DNA of 41,377 bases. Source: Propionivibrio sp. (lineage in GTDB: Bacteria > Pseudomonadota > Gammaproteobacteria > Burkholderiales > Rhodocyclaceae). Positions 23,691 to 30,420 of the stretch are shown here, one piece after another. A program made the position numbers and the translations under genes. The stretch lies in contig NZ_JAPUVO010000081.1 in assembly GCF_029255185.1 (NCBI RefSeq), forward strand, positions 1-41,377, given 5' to 3'. The notes beneath the pieces were generated by a model. It was given only the letters and a program-made list of their open reading frames with translations. It did no database searches and was not told the origin of the DNA. Numbering within the stretch: position 1 is the stretch's first letter; every line of letters begins with the position of its first letter.

Positions 23691-23958
23691 TTTCATCTCC
23701 TTATTGACACGCGCCCAGTAAACCGCAGCTTCAGAAATCTGCGCTCGGGGCCGCTTGATCGGTGACCACCACCGGTGCCGATGAGATTAGGCGGATATCG
23801 CCTGCCGTTCTGTGCGCTGGCGCGCTTAGGCCGCTCAAGCGTCGCGGCACAGCAAAGTCTGCATCTGCCAATCGCCAGCATCCGATTCGAAAACAACAAG
23901 GTGTTCTCGATGAAGGACGGCTAAACTGGCTATCACGATGGATTTTTCAGGACGCCCC

Positions 23959-25143
23959 ATGAACCAACTGCCGCCTGCACACGTGCCGACAACGAATCAC
24001 CACCACGCGCTATGGAATTTAGGATTTCGCCCGTTTTATCTGCTGGCGAGTTTTTTCAGTGCTTTCAGTGTGCTGCTCTGGTCAATGCAATTTTCCGGCG
24101 ACCTGCCCTCCGCGTACCTGAAAGGGGCAGCATGGCATGGTCATGAAATGCTGTTCGGATATGCCACGGCGGTGATCGCTGGCTTTTTGCTGACTGCCGT
24201 GCGCGCGTGGACGAAGCAGCCGACTCCGAGTGGCGTCCCATTGATGGCATTGGCAGCGCTCTGGATCGGCGGCAGGGTTTTGCTACTGACCCCTCTGGCC
24301 ATGACGGCAGCGGTGGTCAATGCGGCCTTTCCTCTCGCCATCGCCGTGGCAATTGGCGTTCCGCTTTTCCGATCGCGCAATGTCCGCAACTATTTCTTTG
24401 TCGGCCTGCTGGTGTTGATGGCCTTGTTGTCCCTGGCCCTGCACCTGGCGCTGCAAGGCCGCTTCGAAGTGGAACCGCGCCTGGGTCTGCAACTCGCACT
24501 GGACGTGATCCTGTTCACCATGGCAGTCGTGGCTGGCCGCGTGATTCCGATGTTCACCAACAACGGAGTACCTGGAGCCAATGCCACACGCCACGCGCTG
24601 CTGGAAAAATGCGCACTTGGCGCGATATTGCTGCTGTTCGCCGCAGACCTGCTGCAATTACCTCAGAATGTCATCGCCATAATTGCACTGCTCGGTGCCC
24701 TGGCCCATGGACTGCGGCTGTCCCTGTGGAAACCGTGGCGCACCCTGAATACGCCGCTGGTATGGATACTGCATGCGGCCTATGCCTGGATAGTGGCTTA
24801 TCTCGCGTTGCGTGGCATGACTGCACTGCACCTTTTGTCCGGATCCTATGCCATTCACGCCCTGACAACAGGCGCAATTGGCGGATTGACGCTGGGCATG
24901 ATGACCCGAACCGCCCGCGGCCATACCGGGCGGCATCTGATCGCGGATGGCTTCGAAGTGCTCATGTTTCTTCTGGTTCAGATCGCAGCGCTTGTTCGTG
25001 TCTTCGGCGGCATCGTATCGCCGGACTTTTATCTAGCGAGCATTCAACTCTCGGGACTGCTGTGGGCCCTGGCCTTCGGTCTTTATGGCGTACGTTACTG
25101 GCCCGTTCTGACCCGCCCCCGCCTGGATGGGCAAGCGGGCTAG
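23959..25143 (+). CDS. nnrS: NnrS family membrane protein
   Basis: The 394-residue, very hydrophobic protein has about 12 predicted transmembrane helices. NnrS proteins are haem- and copper-binding membrane proteins tied to tolerance of nitric oxide and nitrosative stress, usually in denitrifiers. Conserved family segments are H-H-H-A-L-W-N-L-G-F-R-P-F-Y-L, W-H-G-H-E-M-L-F-G-Y and the late G-M-M-T-R-T-A-R-G-H-T-G-R. The His residues in them are the likely metal ligands. I chose ATG 23959, with AGGA six bases upstream; an in-frame ATG at 23938 lacks a Shine-Dalgarno. No denitrification gene is adjacent and no clear FNR/Dnr box was found. Confidence 0.92.
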   Translation: MNQLPPAHVPTTNHHHALWNLGFRPFYLLASFFSAFSVLLWSMQFSGDLPSAYLKGAAWHGHEMLFGYATAVIAGFLLTAVRAWTKQPTPSGVPLMALAALWIGGRVLLLTPLAMTAAVVNAAFPLAIAVAIGVPLFRSRNVRNYFFVGLLVLMALLSLALHLALQGRFEVEPRLGLQLALDVILFTMAVVAGRVIPMFTNNGVPGANATRHALLEKCALGAILLLFAADLLQLPQNVIAIIALLGALAHGLRLSLWKPWRTLNTPLVWILHAAYAWIVAYLALRGMTALHLLSGSYAIHALTTGAIGGLTLGMMTRTARGHTGRHLIADGFEVLMFLLVQIAALVRVFGGIVSPDFYLASIQLSGLLWALAFGLYGVRYWPVLTRPRLDGQAG

Positions 25144-25424: not shown

Positions 25425-25652
25425 TTGGCGCCGTTGAATCAGGCGGGACGTAACGATCTGCTGGAGGTGATTGATGACCGGGTGGGGACGCGTGCCACCC
25501 TGATCACCAGCCAGCTACCGACGGAACACTGGCATACCTATCTCAACGATCCAATACTGGCGGATGCCATTCTGGATCGGGTGCTGCACGCGGCGCACAA
25601 GCTCGCCCTGACTGGCGAATCCCTGCGTAAGCAGGAAAATCCAGCACGATGA
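25425..25652 (+). pseudogene. istB remnant (IS21-family helper ATPase, C-terminal part)
   Basis: The 75-codon fragment reads [19 protein letters not shown] followed by [13 protein letters not shown] and [11 protein letters not shown]. This matches the last third of IstB, the AAA+ helper of IS21-family transposition. The P-loop part is missing, and a TGA stands two codons upstream of the fragment, so it cannot be functional. IS21-like end repeats lie about 100 bases downstream, as expected for the right end of such an element. Confidence 0.8.
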
Positions 25653-25693
25653 ACCGCCTTTGCACGCAACACGGGTTACCCACCGCGCCGCTC

Positions 25694-25722
25694 GCCTCCC
25701 GCTTGATAAATCAGCGGGAGGC
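25694..25722. terminator. Stem-loop after the istB remnant
   Basis: GCCTCCCGCT (25694-25703), nine-base loop, AGCGGGAGGC (25713-25722): a perfect 10-bp stem without a T run, 42 bases after the istB stop. It may be the transcription terminator of the IS element. Confidence 0.35.
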
Positions 25723-25752
25723 GGCACCGTGGATAACCCTGCCGCCTCTCCA

Positions 25753-25901
25753 ATTTCGCGACAGCGTGACCGTCGTTTCACAAAAGCGTAACCGCGATTT
25801 CGCCAAGAGCATGACCGTTTGAGGCAACATCAATCTTTACCCATACAGCATCTCCGCATCGGTCACGCTTTGGCGAAATCACCGGTCACGTTCGGCGAAA
25901 T
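25753..25901. repeat. Five copies of an IS21-end-like 20-bp repeat in two orientations
   Basis: The unit is close to ATTTCGCCAAAGCGTGACCG. Three direct copies begin at 25753, 25775 and 25797, with an exact 22-base period. Two inverted copies occupy 25860-25879 and 25883-25901. IS21-family elements carry several such transposase-binding repeats at each end, inverted relative to each other. The order seen here (right-end orientation, then left-end orientation) is what a right-left junction of tandem or abutting elements would give. No istA follows, so the second element is lost. Confidence 0.65.
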
Positions 25902-25975
25902 ACGCACATTACAGTTCTTCATAAACTTGGGACTACCGAATCTTGCACCACCACGGTAGAAATTTAATTCGTCGA

Positions 25976-26047
25976 ACCGCCGGATACGTGACCCGTATGT
26001 CCGGTGGTGTGGGAGGGAGGGGCCGTGAGGCTTCTTCCTATCCCGAT
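25976..26047 (+). mobile_element. 3' remnant of a group II intron (domains V and VI)
   Basis: Positions 25976-26008 fold as domain V. A 9-bp lower stem (ACCGCCGGA with TCCGGTGGT) contains a G-U wobble at the centre of a C-G-C catalytic triad. Above it are a two-base bulge (TG, 25998-25999) and a short capped stem. Positions 26011-26044 fold as domain VI: GGGAGGGAGGGGCC / GTGA loop / GGCTTCTTCCTATCCC, with A26040 left unpaired as a branch-point adenosine. The sequence then ends in GAT, a usual intron 3' end. Domains I-IV and the reverse transcriptase are absent. Identification rests on fold and my memory of bacterial introns with this C-C-G-G-T-G-G-T-G-T-G-G-G motif. Confidence 0.6.
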
Positions 26048-26070
26048 TGGAGCTCTTCTTAGGAGATTAC

Positions 26071-27117
26071 ATGCGGCCCTACCTATTTCTTTTGCCCGCT
26101 CTGGCAATGATCGACGGATGTGCTTCAACCCCGAATTCTCGTTGGCTTGAGGGGGCGATGATGAGTTTTGAAGTTCTAGAAGTCGGACCACGGCAATACA
26201 AGCTATTCGCCAACGGCGCCGGTGCTCATAAGCGAGAGGAAGTTGAACGCGGATTTCTTGTTCGCGCCAGGGAGATCTGCGATGGTCAGGAGTTTAGCCA
26301 CGAACTCCTGACGACACCGTATCAGTATACGGTGTATGCGACCGTGATGATCGTCTGTAACGGCACTGTGGGACTGTGCCTACTGATGGGGGCTTTGCGG
26401 CATCGCGTGCTCACCTTCAGGGTCGAAGGAACCAACCCGGCGTTGTCGGTACTTGCCACCCTCACTATCTTGACGCTGGTGCTGCCCTCGTTCACTACCT
26501 CCACGCCTGGGCCAACGCTCTCGTCGGTCCAACTTGCCTTTGTTGGCGTGGTCTCACTTACGCTTTACGGAGTTTTTGTTTTCGTGCAGACCGTGCGCCA
26601 TCGTAGTTATTTTCTGCCCGTCGGAGTGGAGTCCGAGGACCAACCTGCAACTCCGCCCCCTGCGTCTGTGGCGTTCACAAGTTTTGCGCTGCTGTTTCTC
26701 TGTCTAGTTGCCGTCGTTGGCCTTGCCAAGGCGCTTGCGCCTAATATTGAGGCCATTGTTAATGCGGCATCGGTGCCGCATGCGGTCATCGGCATCGCTA
26801 TCGCGCTTATGGTTCTGCTGCCCGAAACCTGGGCCGCAGTCCGAACAGCCATGCGCAATCGCATGCAGACGAGCTTCAATCTGGCTCTGGGTTCTGCGCT
26901 TGCCACAATCGGCCTGACCATACCAGCTGTGGCAGCCACTTCCATCATATGGGGACTGCGGCTGGATCTCGGGCTGCCTCCAAAGGAGATGGTGCTGCTC
27001 GTGCTCACCCTGATGATTTCGGCAATGACCTTGGCCGGGGGGCGTTCTACAGTGCTTCAGGGAGCCGTACATCTAGTGCTGTTCGCCGTGTTTATCTTCC
27101 TTGCGGTCTTGCCGTGA
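26071..27117 (+). CDS. Chimeric ORF: lipoprotein N-terminus joined to the C-terminal part of a ChaA-type Ca2+/H+ antiporter
   Basis: The 348-residue reading frame has two unrelated parts. Residues 1 to about 82 form a small lipoprotein: signal peptide, lipobox-like I-D-G-C17, then K-L-F-A-N-G-A-G-A-H-K-R-E-E-V-E-R-G-F-L. From about residue 88 it matches the C-terminal two-thirds of ChaA, a calcium/proton antiporter (V-M-I-V-C-N-G-T-V-G-L-C-L-L-M-G-A-L-R-H-R onwards), with about eight membrane helices. The N-terminal ion-binding repeat of ChaA is missing, so transport is doubtful. A perfect 9-bp inverted repeat with a four-base loop (26314-26335) lies exactly at the join. AGGAG is five bases before ATG 26071. 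An attC-like site follows three bases after the stop. Confidence 0.75.
   Translation: MRPYLFLLPALAMIDGCASTPNSRWLEGAMMSFEVLEVGPRQYKLFANGAGAHKREEVERGFLVRAREICDGQEFSHELLTTPYQYTVYATVMIVCNGTVGLCLLMGALRHRVLTFRVEGTNPALSVLATLTILTLVLPSFTTSTPGPTLSSVQLAFVGVVSLTLYGVFVFVQTVRHRSYFLPVGVESEDQPATPPPASVAFTSFALLFLCLVAVVGLAKALAPNIEAIVNAASVPHAVIGIAIALMVLLPETWAAVRTAMRNRMQTSFNLALGSALATIGLTIPAVAATSIIWGLRLDLGLPPKEMVLLVLTLMISAMTLAGGRSTVLQGAVHLVLFAVFIFLAVLP
26314..26335. repeat. 9-bp inverted repeat at the lipoprotein/ChaA join
   Basis: ACACCGTAT (26314-26322), CAGT, ATACGGTGT (26327-26335). It falls where similarity changes from the lipoprotein family to ChaA. It may have mediated the deletion or be the footprint of a lost element. 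Confidence 0.6.
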
Positions 27118-27121
27118 GGGC

Positions 27122-27184
27122 GCCCAACACTGCGCTCCAAGGGACGCGCCGCATGCGGCGCGTCCCTAAGCTTGAACGTTATCT
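27122..27184. mobile_element. attC-like integron recombination site 1
   Basis: The site has the attC layout: R''-like GCCCAAC (27122-27128), an L'' region (CGCTCCAA), a perfect 28-base central palindrome (27140-27167), an L' region (TTGAACG) and R' GTTATCT (27178-27184). The predicted cut is between G27178 and T27179. R' departs from the GTTRRRY consensus at one position. The last six bases of R' (TTATCT) begin the next cassette and pair with its own R'' (see the second site), as cassette exchange requires. The site lies directly after the ChaA chimera. Confidence 0.65.
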
Positions 27185-27820
27185 CGCCAGTGGAACGTTC
27201 CGTCGCCCCTGAATTCCAATGGTTCATCACAATGGAGTCATGACATGACAAAGCCTGCGAAAAACACGGTTTGCCTCTGGTACGACGATGACGCTGAGAA
27301 CGCAGCGCGGTACTACGCCGAGACTTTTCCCGATTCGTTCGTCGGCGCGGTACACCGCGCACCAGGCGACTTCCCGTCGGGCAAGAAGGGAGACGTCTTG
27401 ACAGTCGAGTTTACCGTGATGGGTATTCCCTGCATCGGGCTCAACGGAGGGCCCGCGTTCAAGCACGACGAGGCGTTCTCGTTTCAGGTCGCGACCGTTG
27501 ACCAGGCCGAGACGGACCGATACTGGAACGCGATTGTCGGCAACGGTGGGCAAGAGAGCGAGTGCGGCTGGTGCAAAGACAGGTGGGGATTGTCCTGGCA
27601 GATTACGCCGATCGTCCTGACTCAAGCGTACACCAACCCCGATCGCGCTATCGCCAAGCGCGCGTTCGATGCAATGATGACGATGAAAAAGATCGACATT
27701 GCCACAATCGAGGCGGCGATACGTGGTTGAGGTTCTCGTGAAAGACGGGATAACGACATGGCGCTCAAGCTCGCTCCCTTCGGTCGCTGGACGCTGCGCG
27801 ATAAAGCCGCGCAGCGCCGG
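27179..27820 (+). mobile_element. Integron gene cassette carrying a VOC-family gene
   Basis: The 642-base unit is bounded by the predicted cut points of two attC-like sites. It starts TTATCTC, and its terminal attC has an R'' of GGGATAAC, which complements G+TTATCTC at seven of eight bases. It holds a single ORF with its own Shine-Dalgarno and little other sequence, the standard cassette layout. No integrase gene or attI site is seen in the window. Confidence 0.65.
27245..27730 (+). CDS. VOC family protein (PhnB-like), cassette-borne
   Basis: The 161-residue single-domain protein of the vicinal-oxygen-chelate fold is of the PhnB / 3-demethylubiquinone-methyltransferase-like type. It has C-L-W-Y-D-D-D-A-E-N-A-A-R-Y-Y-A-E-T-F-P-D-S near the start, then G-I-P-C-I-G-L-N-G-G-P-A-F-K-H-D-E-A and W-G-L-S-W-Q-I-T-P. 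The reaction is unknown; relatives include resistance proteins and dioxygenases, but many have no assigned role. GGAG (27234-27237) lies seven bases before ATG. It sits between two attC-like sites, and members of this family are common integron cassette genes. Confidence 0.85.
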   Translation: MTKPAKNTVCLWYDDDAENAARYYAETFPDSFVGAVHRAPGDFPSGKKGDVLTVEFTVMGIPCIGLNGGPAFKHDEAFSFQVATVDQAETDRYWNAIVGNGGQESECGWCKDRWGLSWQITPIVLTQAYTNPDRAIAKRAFDAMMTMKKIDIATIEAAIRG

Positions 27821-27826
27821 TTAGCT
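27748..27826. mobile_element. attC-like integron recombination site 2
   Basis: R'' GGATAAC (27748-27754), five-base gap, L'' GGCGCT (27760-27765), variable centre, L' AGCGCC (27813-27818), one base, R' GTTAGCT (27820-27826). The two halves are complementary (TAAC..GGCGCT with AGCGCC.GTTA). The centre contains CTCGCTCCCTTCGGTCGCTGG and GCGCG...CGCGC segments common in attC sites. A third cassette would start at TTAGCTC (27821), but it is soon interrupted by the IS110 fragment. Confidence 0.7.
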
Positions 27827-27905
27827 CTACGACAAGGGCTTCCCCGAATTCGCAAGTGCGCGTGATATTTTTTAGTTCATTTTTTTCTCTGGTCTGATTT
27901 CATTT

Positions 27906-28466
27906 TCACTGCATTAGGAGGTCGCCAATACAACGGTTGGCGTGGCCCGGCAGATCTTCGAGGTACGCTCCAATCGCTCGGCGCAGGCAGGCGACCTTCT
28001 GCGGCAGGACGATGCCGAACTCGGACATCAGGCCGCGCATCCTGTTATAGATCGCCGTACGTTCTTCGACAAAGCCTTGGCGGGTGCGATGCAGACAGAG
28101 GATGATTTGCTGATGTTCTTCCTTGACCGGGACAAAGCGCATGCTGGGTCGGGTGACGGCTTCGCAGATGGCGGCGGCATCGGCCGCGTCGTTTTTGCCG
28201 CGTTTGCCGCTCAGACGGTAGGGGGTGACGAACTTGGGGGCGATGAGTTTGACGCTGTGGCCATATTCCCGAAAAAACCGTGCCCAGTGATGTGCGCCTG
28301 AGCAGGCTTCCATGCCGATCAGGCAGGGCGGCAACTGGACGATCATCGGTAGCAGTTGCTCTCTTGTTACCTTGGGCTTGATCAGGGCCGCTTTGCCATT
28401 CTCATCAACACCATGAACAGCAAAGACGTTCTTGGCAAGATCAATTCCTATCGTCATAATGCTCAT
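27906..28466 (-). pseudogene. IS110-family transposase, N-terminal half only
   Basis: The 186-residue product begins MSIMTIGIDLAKNVFAVHG, the start of IS110 DEDD transposases. The first acidic residue is in G-I-D-L-A, and further catalytic-domain segments are L-I-G-M-E-A-C-S-G-A-H-H-W-A and K-N-D-A-A-D-A-A-A-I-C-E-A. Similarity stops at G-D-L-L-M-Q, where a stop follows. The C-terminal domain with the catalytic Ser (about 150 residues) is missing, so the enzyme cannot recombine DNA. ATG 28466 has AGGGGAAG a few bases upstream; a longer frame from 28490 is unlikely. The truncation point falls close to the second attC-like site. Confidence 0.85.
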
Positions 28467-28602
28467 GCACTTCCCCTTTCGTGGTTTCAAATGGACGACT
28501 TCGACATCACCATTTTGGCACTGCGTTGGCGTGCGGCTTTAACTCCGCTTCCTCGGGACGGGGAAGTCCCTTTCATTCGTTATGCCTAATCCCTGAGGGA
28601 CA
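28467..28602 (-). other. IS110 upstream noncoding end, possible bridge-RNA region
   Basis: These 136 bases lie between the IS110 transposase start and the divergent AP2 gene. In IS110-group elements the noncoding end before the recombinase encodes the bridge RNA that guides target and donor choice. Paired segments such as CCTCGGGACGGGGAAGTCCC and GGGATTAGG (minus strand) suggest structure. The exact element end is not visible, so this is a candidate only. Confidence 0.25.
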
Positions 28603-29064
28603 ATGAAACACCATCGCAACATTCGCCGCATAGATAATGACACCCGGAGGACCCATGCTTGGCTCGTGCAAGTTCAACGGAGAGGCAACGTCATCATAAA
28701 AATGTTCTCTGATAATATTTTGGGTGGGAAGCAAAAAGCCTTATCAGCCGCCCTTGAATACCGCGATGAGCTAATCCTTGCTGCTCCAGCAGCCGAGCGT
28801 AATCTGTGGCATCGGACGATTGTCCGGCGCAATAACACATCGGGCATTCCGGGCGTTGGTCTTTATAAAAGAACGAATGGCTCAGAAAGATGGAGAGCCG
28901 AATGGATCGATGAAAATGGAATTAGAAAATCACGAACATTCTCAGTAAGCATTTATGGCAAACGCAAGGCAAAACAACTTGCCATTGCCGAGAGACAGCG
29001 CCAGCTTGAACGGATATTTGAAATAAAAAACACTCAAGTTTGCTGGCCTAACGAACAAGGTTAG
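28603..29064 (+). CDS. AP2/ERF-like DNA-binding domain protein
   Basis: The 153-residue basic protein is of the bacterial AP2 type. It contains I-R-R-I-D-N-D...H-A-W-L-V-Q-V-Q-R-R-G...K-M-F-S-D-N-I-L-G-G-K-Q-K-A-L-S-A-A-L-E-Y-R-D-E-L, an AP2-like three-strand plus helix unit. A second, partly degenerate unit follows: S-G-I-P-G-V-G-L-Y...W-R-A-E-W-I-D-E-N-G...R-T-F-S-V-S-I-Y-G. Such proteins are often linked to mobile elements or homing nucleases, but no nuclease motif is seen here. GAGGG lies three bases before the ATG. It starts the A/T-richer region and is separated from the polysaccharide genes by about 270 bases, so it need not regulate them. Confidence 0.72.
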   Translation: MKHHRNIRRIDNDTRRTHAWLVQVQRRGNVIIKMFSDNILGGKQKALSAALEYRDELILAAPAAERNLWHRTIVRRNNTSGIPGVGLYKRTNGSERWRAEWIDENGIRKSRTFSVSIYGKRKAKQLAIAERQRQLERIFEIKNTQVCWPNEQG

Positions 29065-29196
29065 ATCGTGCAACATATTGCCTGATGTGTCTTGGGCCGA
29101 ACTTCTTGGAAATGGCTGCTGCGTTAATGTTTATTAAGAACGCTTCTTTCAAGATTGAAAGCATGTGAAAAATTGATTACCACCTGATTTCCTCGC

Positions 29197-29289
29197 TCGT
29201 CACCCCGGCGGCAGCCGGGGTCTAGCTCGTTTATCTAATTGTTAATGAATATCAGAGGAATGAACGGATTCCAGTTTTCACCGGAATGA
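29197..29289. repeat. REP-like pair of short palindromic repeats
   Basis: ACCCCGGC-GGCA-GCCGGGGT (29202-29221), preceded by CGTC, and 45 bases later GGATTCCAGTTTTCACCGGAAT (29266-29287, with ATTCC/GGAAT arms) are typical of dispersed REP-like repeats in proteobacterial genomes. The first hairpin may also end transcription of the AP2 gene. The rest of the gap 29065-29337 shows nothing else. Confidence 0.45.
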
Positions 29290-29337
29290 TAGCTTTTGGA
29301 GTGTTTATCCATTAATTCACAGCCTCTGAGTCCATCT

Positions 29338-30420
29338 GTGACTAAAATTTACTTTTACCCTCATTGCACATTTAGAGATCGTCAACTGGACACCATCCGT
29401 CGGTGGCCTGTAAGCGAGGTAATGAATCGCGACCTGCTTGATTTACACACCGGTACTCAGGTTGATGTTAGTTATGCAAATTCTTCAAAACTAATAATGT
29501 CCTGGAAACAAACCCTGCCGTTGTTAAATATCAAGTTACGCCCAAGAGTTGCACCGAAGGATTCAGTGATTTATGTATGGGGCGCCCTAATAGCCACTGG
29601 TGATTTTATTATTGATATTGATAATCCTTGGTCGCTTGTTGGTTATAACTTGCGGGCCATGCCACTTTATAATCGGCTAATAAAATTTATCCTTCTTTCA
29701 AAGCGCTGCCGTGAAATTCGTTGTATGAGCGAGGCTTGCCGAAACAGCCTTTGTTCGCTTTTCGGGATGGCCGTTTATGCTAAAGCCACGGTGCACTATC
29801 CATGCATTTCCCCTGTTTCTACTGTTATAAAGCCATCTGGCGATGTGTGTCGATTCCTTTTTGTCGGTACGCAATTCGAAATCAAGGGCGGTGAGGCCAT
29901 GCTCAAGGCTTTTCGACGTGTGTATGCACGACTGGGGTCGTGCCGCTTGGATGTAATCGCCCATCTTCCTCCCGATTTCGCCGCCCTCGCGGAAGGTTGC
30001 GACGGCCTTGTTGTCCACAAGGCTCACTTTACCCGCGATGAGGTGCACACCCGCTTCATGCAGAATGCTGACGTTCTTATTCTTCCTACCTATGTTGAAT
30101 CTTTTGGCATGGTCGCACTAGAGGCTTTGGCACATGGCTTGGCAGTGATCGCCACCGATGTTTATGCCTTGAGCGAGTTGGTTGATAACGGGGTTAATGG
30201 AAACCTTCTGTCGCCGCCAATTTCGATCTGGGATGGTGTAATGCCGTCTTCCGCTTACTTCAAGCTATCCGATATTAAACAACTCATCCGTGCGGCGGAT
30301 ACGAGTTTATTCGAGTTAGAATTAGAGCAGTCGATTGAGCGCTTTGTAGTGGATCGGGAGTGGCGCTTACGAGCAAGACAGGCCAGCACAAAACTAATGA
30401 CGGAGCGTTTCGCATGTTGA
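29338..30420 (+). CDS. Glycosyltransferase family 4 (GT-B)
   Basis: The product of about 360 residues has a GT4 C-terminal Rossmann domain. F-V-G-T-Q-F-E-I-K-G-G-E opens it, and the E-x7-E motif is E-S-F-G-M-V-A-L-E, followed by A-T-D-V-Y-A-L-S-E-L-V-D-N-G-V-N-G. It probably transfers a sugar from a nucleotide donor at the cytosolic membrane face. The start is uncertain: no ATG precedes conserved sequence, and I place it at GTG 29338 (V-T-K-I-Y-F-Y-P-H). A TTG at 29296 or an ATG further in are alternatives. It is the first gene of a tightly coupled run; its stop overlaps the next start by seven bases. Confidence 0.8.
   Translation: MTKIYFYPHCTFRDRQLDTIRRWPVSEVMNRDLLDLHTGTQVDVSYANSSKLIMSWKQTLPLLNIKLRPRVAPKDSVIYVWGALIATGDFIIDIDNPWSLVGYNLRAMPLYNRLIKFILLSKRCREIRCMSEACRNSLCSLFGMAVYAKATVHYPCISPVSTVIKPSGDVCRFLFVGTQFEIKGGEAMLKAFRRVYARLGSCRLDVIAHLPPDFAALAEGCDGLVVHKAHFTRDEVHTRFMQNADVLILPTYVESFGMVALEALAHGLAVIATDVYALSELVDNGVNGNLLSPPISIWDGVMPSSAYFKLSDIKQLIRAADTSLFELELEQSIERFVVDREWRLRARQASTKLMTERFAC

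Follow-up and report, generated by a model that had tools for sequence, protein, structure and literature searches.

A VOC gene cassette between two attC sites, the second interrupted by an IS110/IS1111-type element, in a Propionivibrio genome

Layout of the locus and its upstream neighbourhood

The window (the whole stretch of DNA that was analysed, 41,377 nucleotides) is C81:1-41377 of the genome of Propionivibrio sp., G000, which comprises 3,255,106 bases in 141 contigs. It carries a VOC gene cassette with an attC site at either end, an insertion sequence (IS) located within the second site and a probable third cassette gene. Non-cassette genes flank this array, with NnrS at 23938-25143 on one side and glycosyltransferases from 29296 on the other. 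The features are listed below; R1 and R2 are the covariance models described in the next section.

25907-26048, plus strand: remnant of a group II intron 3' end (Rfam RF00029, 40.8 bits over 25975-26047, gathering threshold 40)
26047-27117 (ATG at 26071), plus strand: upstream chimeric open reading frame, from profile matches; ends 4 bp before attC1
27122-27184, minus strand (folds on the bottom strand): attC1, from covariance-model matches, geometry and fold; R'' GCCCAAC 27122-27128, L'' 27134-27141, L' 27165-27171, R' GTTATCT 27178-27184
27179-27830, plus strand: VOC gene cassette, from the TT of attC1 R' to the last base before attC2 R', by family alignment
27245-27730, plus strand: VOC/PhnB-like gene, 161 aa (Pfam PF06983, 164.5 bits)
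27748-27830, minus strand: body of attC2, from R2 and R1 matches and relatives; R'' GGATAAC 27748-27754, or 27751-27757 by the family register, which is that of the model alignment; L'' 27763-27770 with extrahelical C 27766 (G on the bottom strand); L' 27819-27825; spacer TCTAC 27826-27830
27831-28578, minus strand: internally deleted IS110/IS1111-type element, 748 bp, from its junctions, inserted between the L' spacer and the R' of attC2
27906-28490, minus strand: remnant DEDD transposase gene (NF033542, 180.1 bits; Pfam PF01548)
28579-28585, plus strand: GTTATGC, the R' of attC2 in its displaced position, where the next cassette begins
28603-29064, plus strand: probable third cassette gene, encoding an AP2-domain protein, from a domain match and 80% DNA identity to C140:29272-29723
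29046-29075, no strand assigned: R''-like GCCTAAC followed by an attC end that is broken and non-canonical; 31 bp of it recur at C117:11721-11751 (97%)

The open reading frame upstream of attC1 is a fusion or decay product. Its N-terminal part of about 84 residues weakly resembles CC0125-type lipoproteins (E 0.012, below the model cut-off) and is unrelated to the remainder, which corresponds to the C-terminal portion of ChaA-type antiporters (profile positions 99-369 of 372, below the model cut-off; Pfam Na_Ca_ex, 73 bits). No start could be located for this upstream cassette: inspection by eye of the DNA before the reading frame showed no good G-TTGGGC partner of the R'' GCCCAAC, and a TTGGGA near 25926 is preceded by C, not G. 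Farther upstream, 25641-25906 contains repeated GGTCACG...GCGAAAT-type motifs, which we take to resemble an IS21-type end, and an 88% identical stretch is found in G022:C347. Stretches related to the intron remnant end at 26048. An association of group IIC introns with integrons is reported (PMC7923331).

The attC sites and the cassettes

Integron integrases recombine folded single-stranded attC sites. In place of the IntegronFinder attC model we used two covariance models built in this analysis from sites of the same genus and family, R1 from 30 short and R2 from 18 long attC sites. Training sites were gathered by a geometry scan of 236,715 bases, which returned 82 matches, 72 of them folding well, while one shuffled control returned 18, nine of them folding well. 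Nine of 57 selected sites were dropped before a first alignment, A1, some for their odd make-up and others by choice. In A1, which mixed short and long sites in 48 rows, L'' was misplaced, and two separate alignments were made from it, A2 (30 rows) and A3 (18 rows). In the alignments L'' and L' change in pairs, and an extrahelical G is conserved almost without exception in A2 and in every row of A3. Both window sites are excluded from the training rows, but many of the source stretches, and with them part of the training set, came from BLAST with attC2 as query; the R2 score of attC2 is therefore not independent, and attC1 represents the only wholly independent test of the models.

With filters off, R1 matches attC1 over 27122-27184 on the minus strand (44.4 bits, E 4.5e-9) and attC2 over 27757-27831 (31 bits, E 1.1e-5), its next match in the window being at E 0.88. 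R2 matches attC2 over 27751-27837 (85.3 bits, E 6.3e-21) and attC1 (33.1 bits, E 1.1e-6), followed, on the other strand, by the palindrome at the centre of attC2 (E 0.15). Besides attC1 and attC2, neither model finds an attC at E < 0.1 in the 41,377-nt window. Both sites of the preliminary description were thus recovered on the bottom strand, and for attC1 its coordinates and R''/L''/L'/R' organization stand. A search of 25500-29500 against Rfam at E <= 1 gave no attC match. At 6.0, the threshold used in training, the geometry scan passed over both sites (attC1 5.1; attC2 minus the IS 5.7) and returned two other window matches that are presumably false. Strict and relaxed palindrome scans picked up neither site, because neighbouring R' and R'' need not pair and the L boxes are bulged.

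All elements of an attC site are present in attC1, namely the R''-L''-L'-R' order, a bottom-strand hairpin and an extrahelical base, with two mismatches between L'' and L'. Its cut site is expected between 27178 and 27179. Folded as single-stranded DNA, the bottom strand of attC1 reaches a z-score of -4.69, which none of 200 shuffles equals. For attC2 (27748-27831), in contrast, the free DNA fold is not clearly better than that of its shuffles, of which 29 in 200 do as well (z -1.13). The same elements occur in attC2 with two departures: its R' is displaced by the IS, and its R'' (GGATAAC) lies 3 bp farther out than in the family register, lengthening the R''-L'' distance.

Relatives of attC2 are found by BLAST in many genomes of the genus, over 76 bp and with up to 99% identity, and many of these matches stop at 27830/27831, where the relatives continue with GTTRRRY. 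The usual layout of the family, compared with 50 BLAST matches in fetched stretches, is CTAAC-ATGGC (or CCGGC)-GCTCAACC...GGTTAGC-TCTAC-GTTRRRY. Given that R' follows the spacer TCTAC in relatives, it is expected from 27831, where the window instead reads GACAAGGGCTTCCCC. The preliminary description had ended attC2 at 27826; the body of the site holds, its right half does not. The supposed R', GTTAGCT at 27820-27826, overlaps L' (27819-27825), and the true R' is found at 28579-28585. The L' of this family contains GTTAGC and is easily mistaken for R', a trap in reading such sites.

The VOC gene between attC1 and attC2 is an integron cassette, a single reading frame followed by an attC whose own R'' is complementary to the preceding R'. 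The R' of attC1 (GTTATCT) equals the complement of the attC2 R'' (GGATAAC) at three of four variable positions, and the last position forms a G-T wobble. None of 39 other sampled R'' agrees with GTTATCT in three or more variable positions. Among 39 R'/R'' pairs of neighbouring attC sites from the genus and family, own genome included, all four positions agree in 30, three in five, two in three and one in one. The mean agreement is 3.64 compared to 2.49 in shuffled pairs (maximum 2.90 in 2000 shuffles).

Solved relatives of the VOC protein are 1u69 (the nearest), 3oms and 1u7i. VOC/PhnB-like proteins of integron cassettes share the PF06983 domain with the gene on C81. We compared the best 80 relatives listed from a species-genome collection. 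At E <= 0.01, R1 places an attC within 150 bp of the VOC gene in four of these loci (L047, on both sides, L059, L029 and L050); L047 is a Gallionella MAG in which the VOC copy lies between two attC matches. Unlike the C81 gene, 65 of the 80 have no R1 match at E <= 1 across the examined stretch; R1 is tuned to sites of this genus and family, and attC sites are therefore undercounted here. The 35 R1 matches at E <= 1, found in 15 loci, all lie opposite the VOC-gene strand, as do 16 of 17 R2 matches at E <= 0.1 (the exception being L077, E 0.07). No attC was found with R1 or R2 at E <= 0.5 in 14 sources around VOC homologues from relatives in the order, among them same-genus homologues in G006 (one) and G013 (two). 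VOC relatives are also carried by 333 plasmid records. Since attC adjoins some homologues and not others, cassettes are one setting of the family but not its only one, and its earlier description as common in cassettes stands only in part.

The AP2 gene downstream is most likely a third cassette, because its 80% identical copy on C140 sits between attC matches (29175-29243 and 29715-29778). The attC that follows it is most likely broken after R''. A tiny attC at 29046-29066 was considered and rejected (R1 11.5 bits, E 0.88, not significant). The half-site at 29046-29075 is common to apparent array ends (G000:C117:11721-11751, L184:440-494, L175:6564-6626 and L176:3626-3688), and in two other genomes of the genus, G007 and G010, more complete forms of it read as attC sites oriented opposite to the array. 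We think it unlikely that GTTGCACGATCTAACCTTGTTCGTTRGGC, which runs against the array direction and closes both the window array and that on C117, represents a shared array-end element of this genome, with the fuller G007 and G010 versions as reversed attC sites, and acts as a boundary or inverted-capture site. Beyond it, 29157-29295 is a dispersed repeat, of which further copies with 68-86% identity lie on C119, C83, C136 and C65 of this genome.

An IS110/IS1111-type element inside attC2

The element separating attC2 from its R' has lost its internal part. The transposase remnant corresponds to the N-terminal part of the protein (profile positions 1-190 of 343), the C-terminal part being gone. 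Two longer copies of 1507 and 1512 bp are found in G007; compared to these, the 748-bp window copy is missing the transposase C-terminus together with most of the non-coding DNA downstream, so that neither a complete transposase gene nor a complete downstream non-coding (guide RNA) part is present. The subterminal inverted repeats read AAGGGCTTCCCC and AAGGGACTTCCCC. The left junction, CTAC-TACAAGGGCTTCCCC, occurs in several genomes of the genus and corresponds at two places in G007 to the start of the IS. The right end is AAGTCCCTTTCATTC, and CATTC is followed by GTT in all eight distinct copies that reach it, a count that leaves out L155 and L171, whose matches fall short of the end. The bases after the right end are GTTATGC in the window and GTTAGCC, GTTAGAT, GTTCGGC (twice), GTTGGAC, GTTAAGT and GTTGGGC elsewhere. 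At the left, six of eight distinct ends, including that of the window, follow a recognisable attC L' and spacer; the two without a clear attC body are on C123 of the same genome (L181) and on G010 C1 (L183). The eight right ends and six left ends therefore indicate that the IS sits between the attC spacer and R'.

The IS1111-attC group of insertion sequences is reportedly the subject of work by Tetu and Holmes from 2008 and by Post and Hall from 2009. Elements of the group possess subterminal inverted repeats with outer extensions of about 6-7 bp and 3 bp, as described in PMC11187229. The family of the window IS has the same inverted-repeat layout and occupies one fixed position of attC, always in the same orientation. 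Shared with the group are a DEDD transposase, the subterminal repeats, insertion at the border of the attC R', the single orientation and, in longer relatives of the window IS, a long non-coding part downstream of tnp. In contrast, the window copy is short of the transposase C-terminus and most of the downstream non-coding DNA. Judged by its sequence, the window IS is a dead remnant of an IS1111-attC-type element.

Another shortened copy of 776 bp, L164 (G010:C1), has a different internal deletion. A non-autonomous IS derivative shared between the two is unsupported because the deletions differ.

Class of the array and its proposed history

IntegronFinder 2.0 designates clusters of attC sites lacking an integron integrase as CALIN (PMC9024848). 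Two attC sites and no nearby integrase are found at this locus, which differs from the class in nothing basic; of its two scorable attC sites, the IS divides one. We are highly confident that it represents a remnant array of this kind, running from the chimeric antiporter reading frame through attC1, VOC, attC2 and AP2 to a broken attC3, in which an integrase inserted the cassettes and an IS subsequently entered attC2. This supports the earlier reading, in which the VOC cassette lies between two attC sites and the array is detached or decayed.

The observation that no integrase is in view is true of the window, and a search of the genome located one on C59 (TIGR02249, 502 bits, cut-off 265; 332 aa), starting about 265 bp from the contig end. 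It is the one PF13495 match in the genome, and the sole TIGR02249 match above the cut-off lies at the same place. Beside intI, G000:C59:20880-21153 holds an attI-like GTTAGGC and an apparent first-cassette start that is cut by the contig end. At E <= 0.01, R1 finds at least 15 attC sites on eight contigs of this genome, C81 included; this number is a lower bound from 150 scored candidates out of 1468 at first look and includes the window sites and some training sites. In 59 genomes of relatives, R1 matches (E <= 0.01) are present in 29 of 29 with an integrase above the cut-off, several of which had supplied training sites, compared to 14 of 30 without one.

Could the two hairpins be terminators or other palindromes that look like attC by chance? 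The centres of both sites are strong GC-rich palindromes, and the simple palindrome and geometry scans do not single them out, but the model E-values (4.5e-9 for attC1, 6.3e-21 for attC2), the covariation among relatives and the strand bias at the 80 best VOC loci (35/35 with R1, 16/17 with R2) make the chance of this practically negligible. It is also very improbable that the array belongs to the main integron and only looks detached since the 141-contig draft broke at repeated attC sites. The integrase gene near the end of C59, with the attI-like sequence and first-cassette start, would fit such a break, as would an attC on C139 close to a contig end, and the authors of IntegronFinder 2.0 warn of this effect in drafts (PMC9024848). 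Against it, the C81 array is set amid non-cassette genes, with about 26 kb of contig on one side and 12 kb on the other, and at least 12 kb of other DNA would therefore separate it from any integrase.

Within the preferred reading of a remnant array, we give somewhat less than an even chance to an in-trans integrase having put the cassettes directly into a secondary site of the chromosome, at a locus that never had intI. The integrase on C59 together with attC sites on eight other contigs, counting C81, is consistent with this, and in-trans mobilisation and secondary sites are described in PMC12444791. On the other side, no empty site or clean left boundary was found, and an old integron minus its intI would look alike. 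Among the matches listed from 28 genomes of the genus, with ten candidates each, there was no empty site and no relative sharing both flanks.

According to the history we propose for the remnant array, the VOC cassette would once have been a free circle in which the R' and R'' now found at its two ends belonged to one attC. This circle would have been inserted next to attC1 by an integron integrase, possibly supplied in trans. Later, an IS1111-type element targeting the attC R' border would have landed in attC2, presumably guided by its own guide RNA, and at some time the IS would have lost about 760 internal bp. Insertion by the integrase would thus have been followed by immobilisation by the IS: attC2 would now be a poor or dead site, so that the VOC gene would not be excisable alone. 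Signs of decay at the locus are the IS in attC2, the 3-bp longer R''-L'' distance, the chimeric upstream reading frame and the broken third attC. Both the CALIN and the IS1111-attC-type interruption are known kinds, and the array is small, decaying and ordinary. It provides a well-delimited case of a cassette probably frozen as an attC-targeting IS split R' from its site, the genome having attC sites on at least eight contigs.
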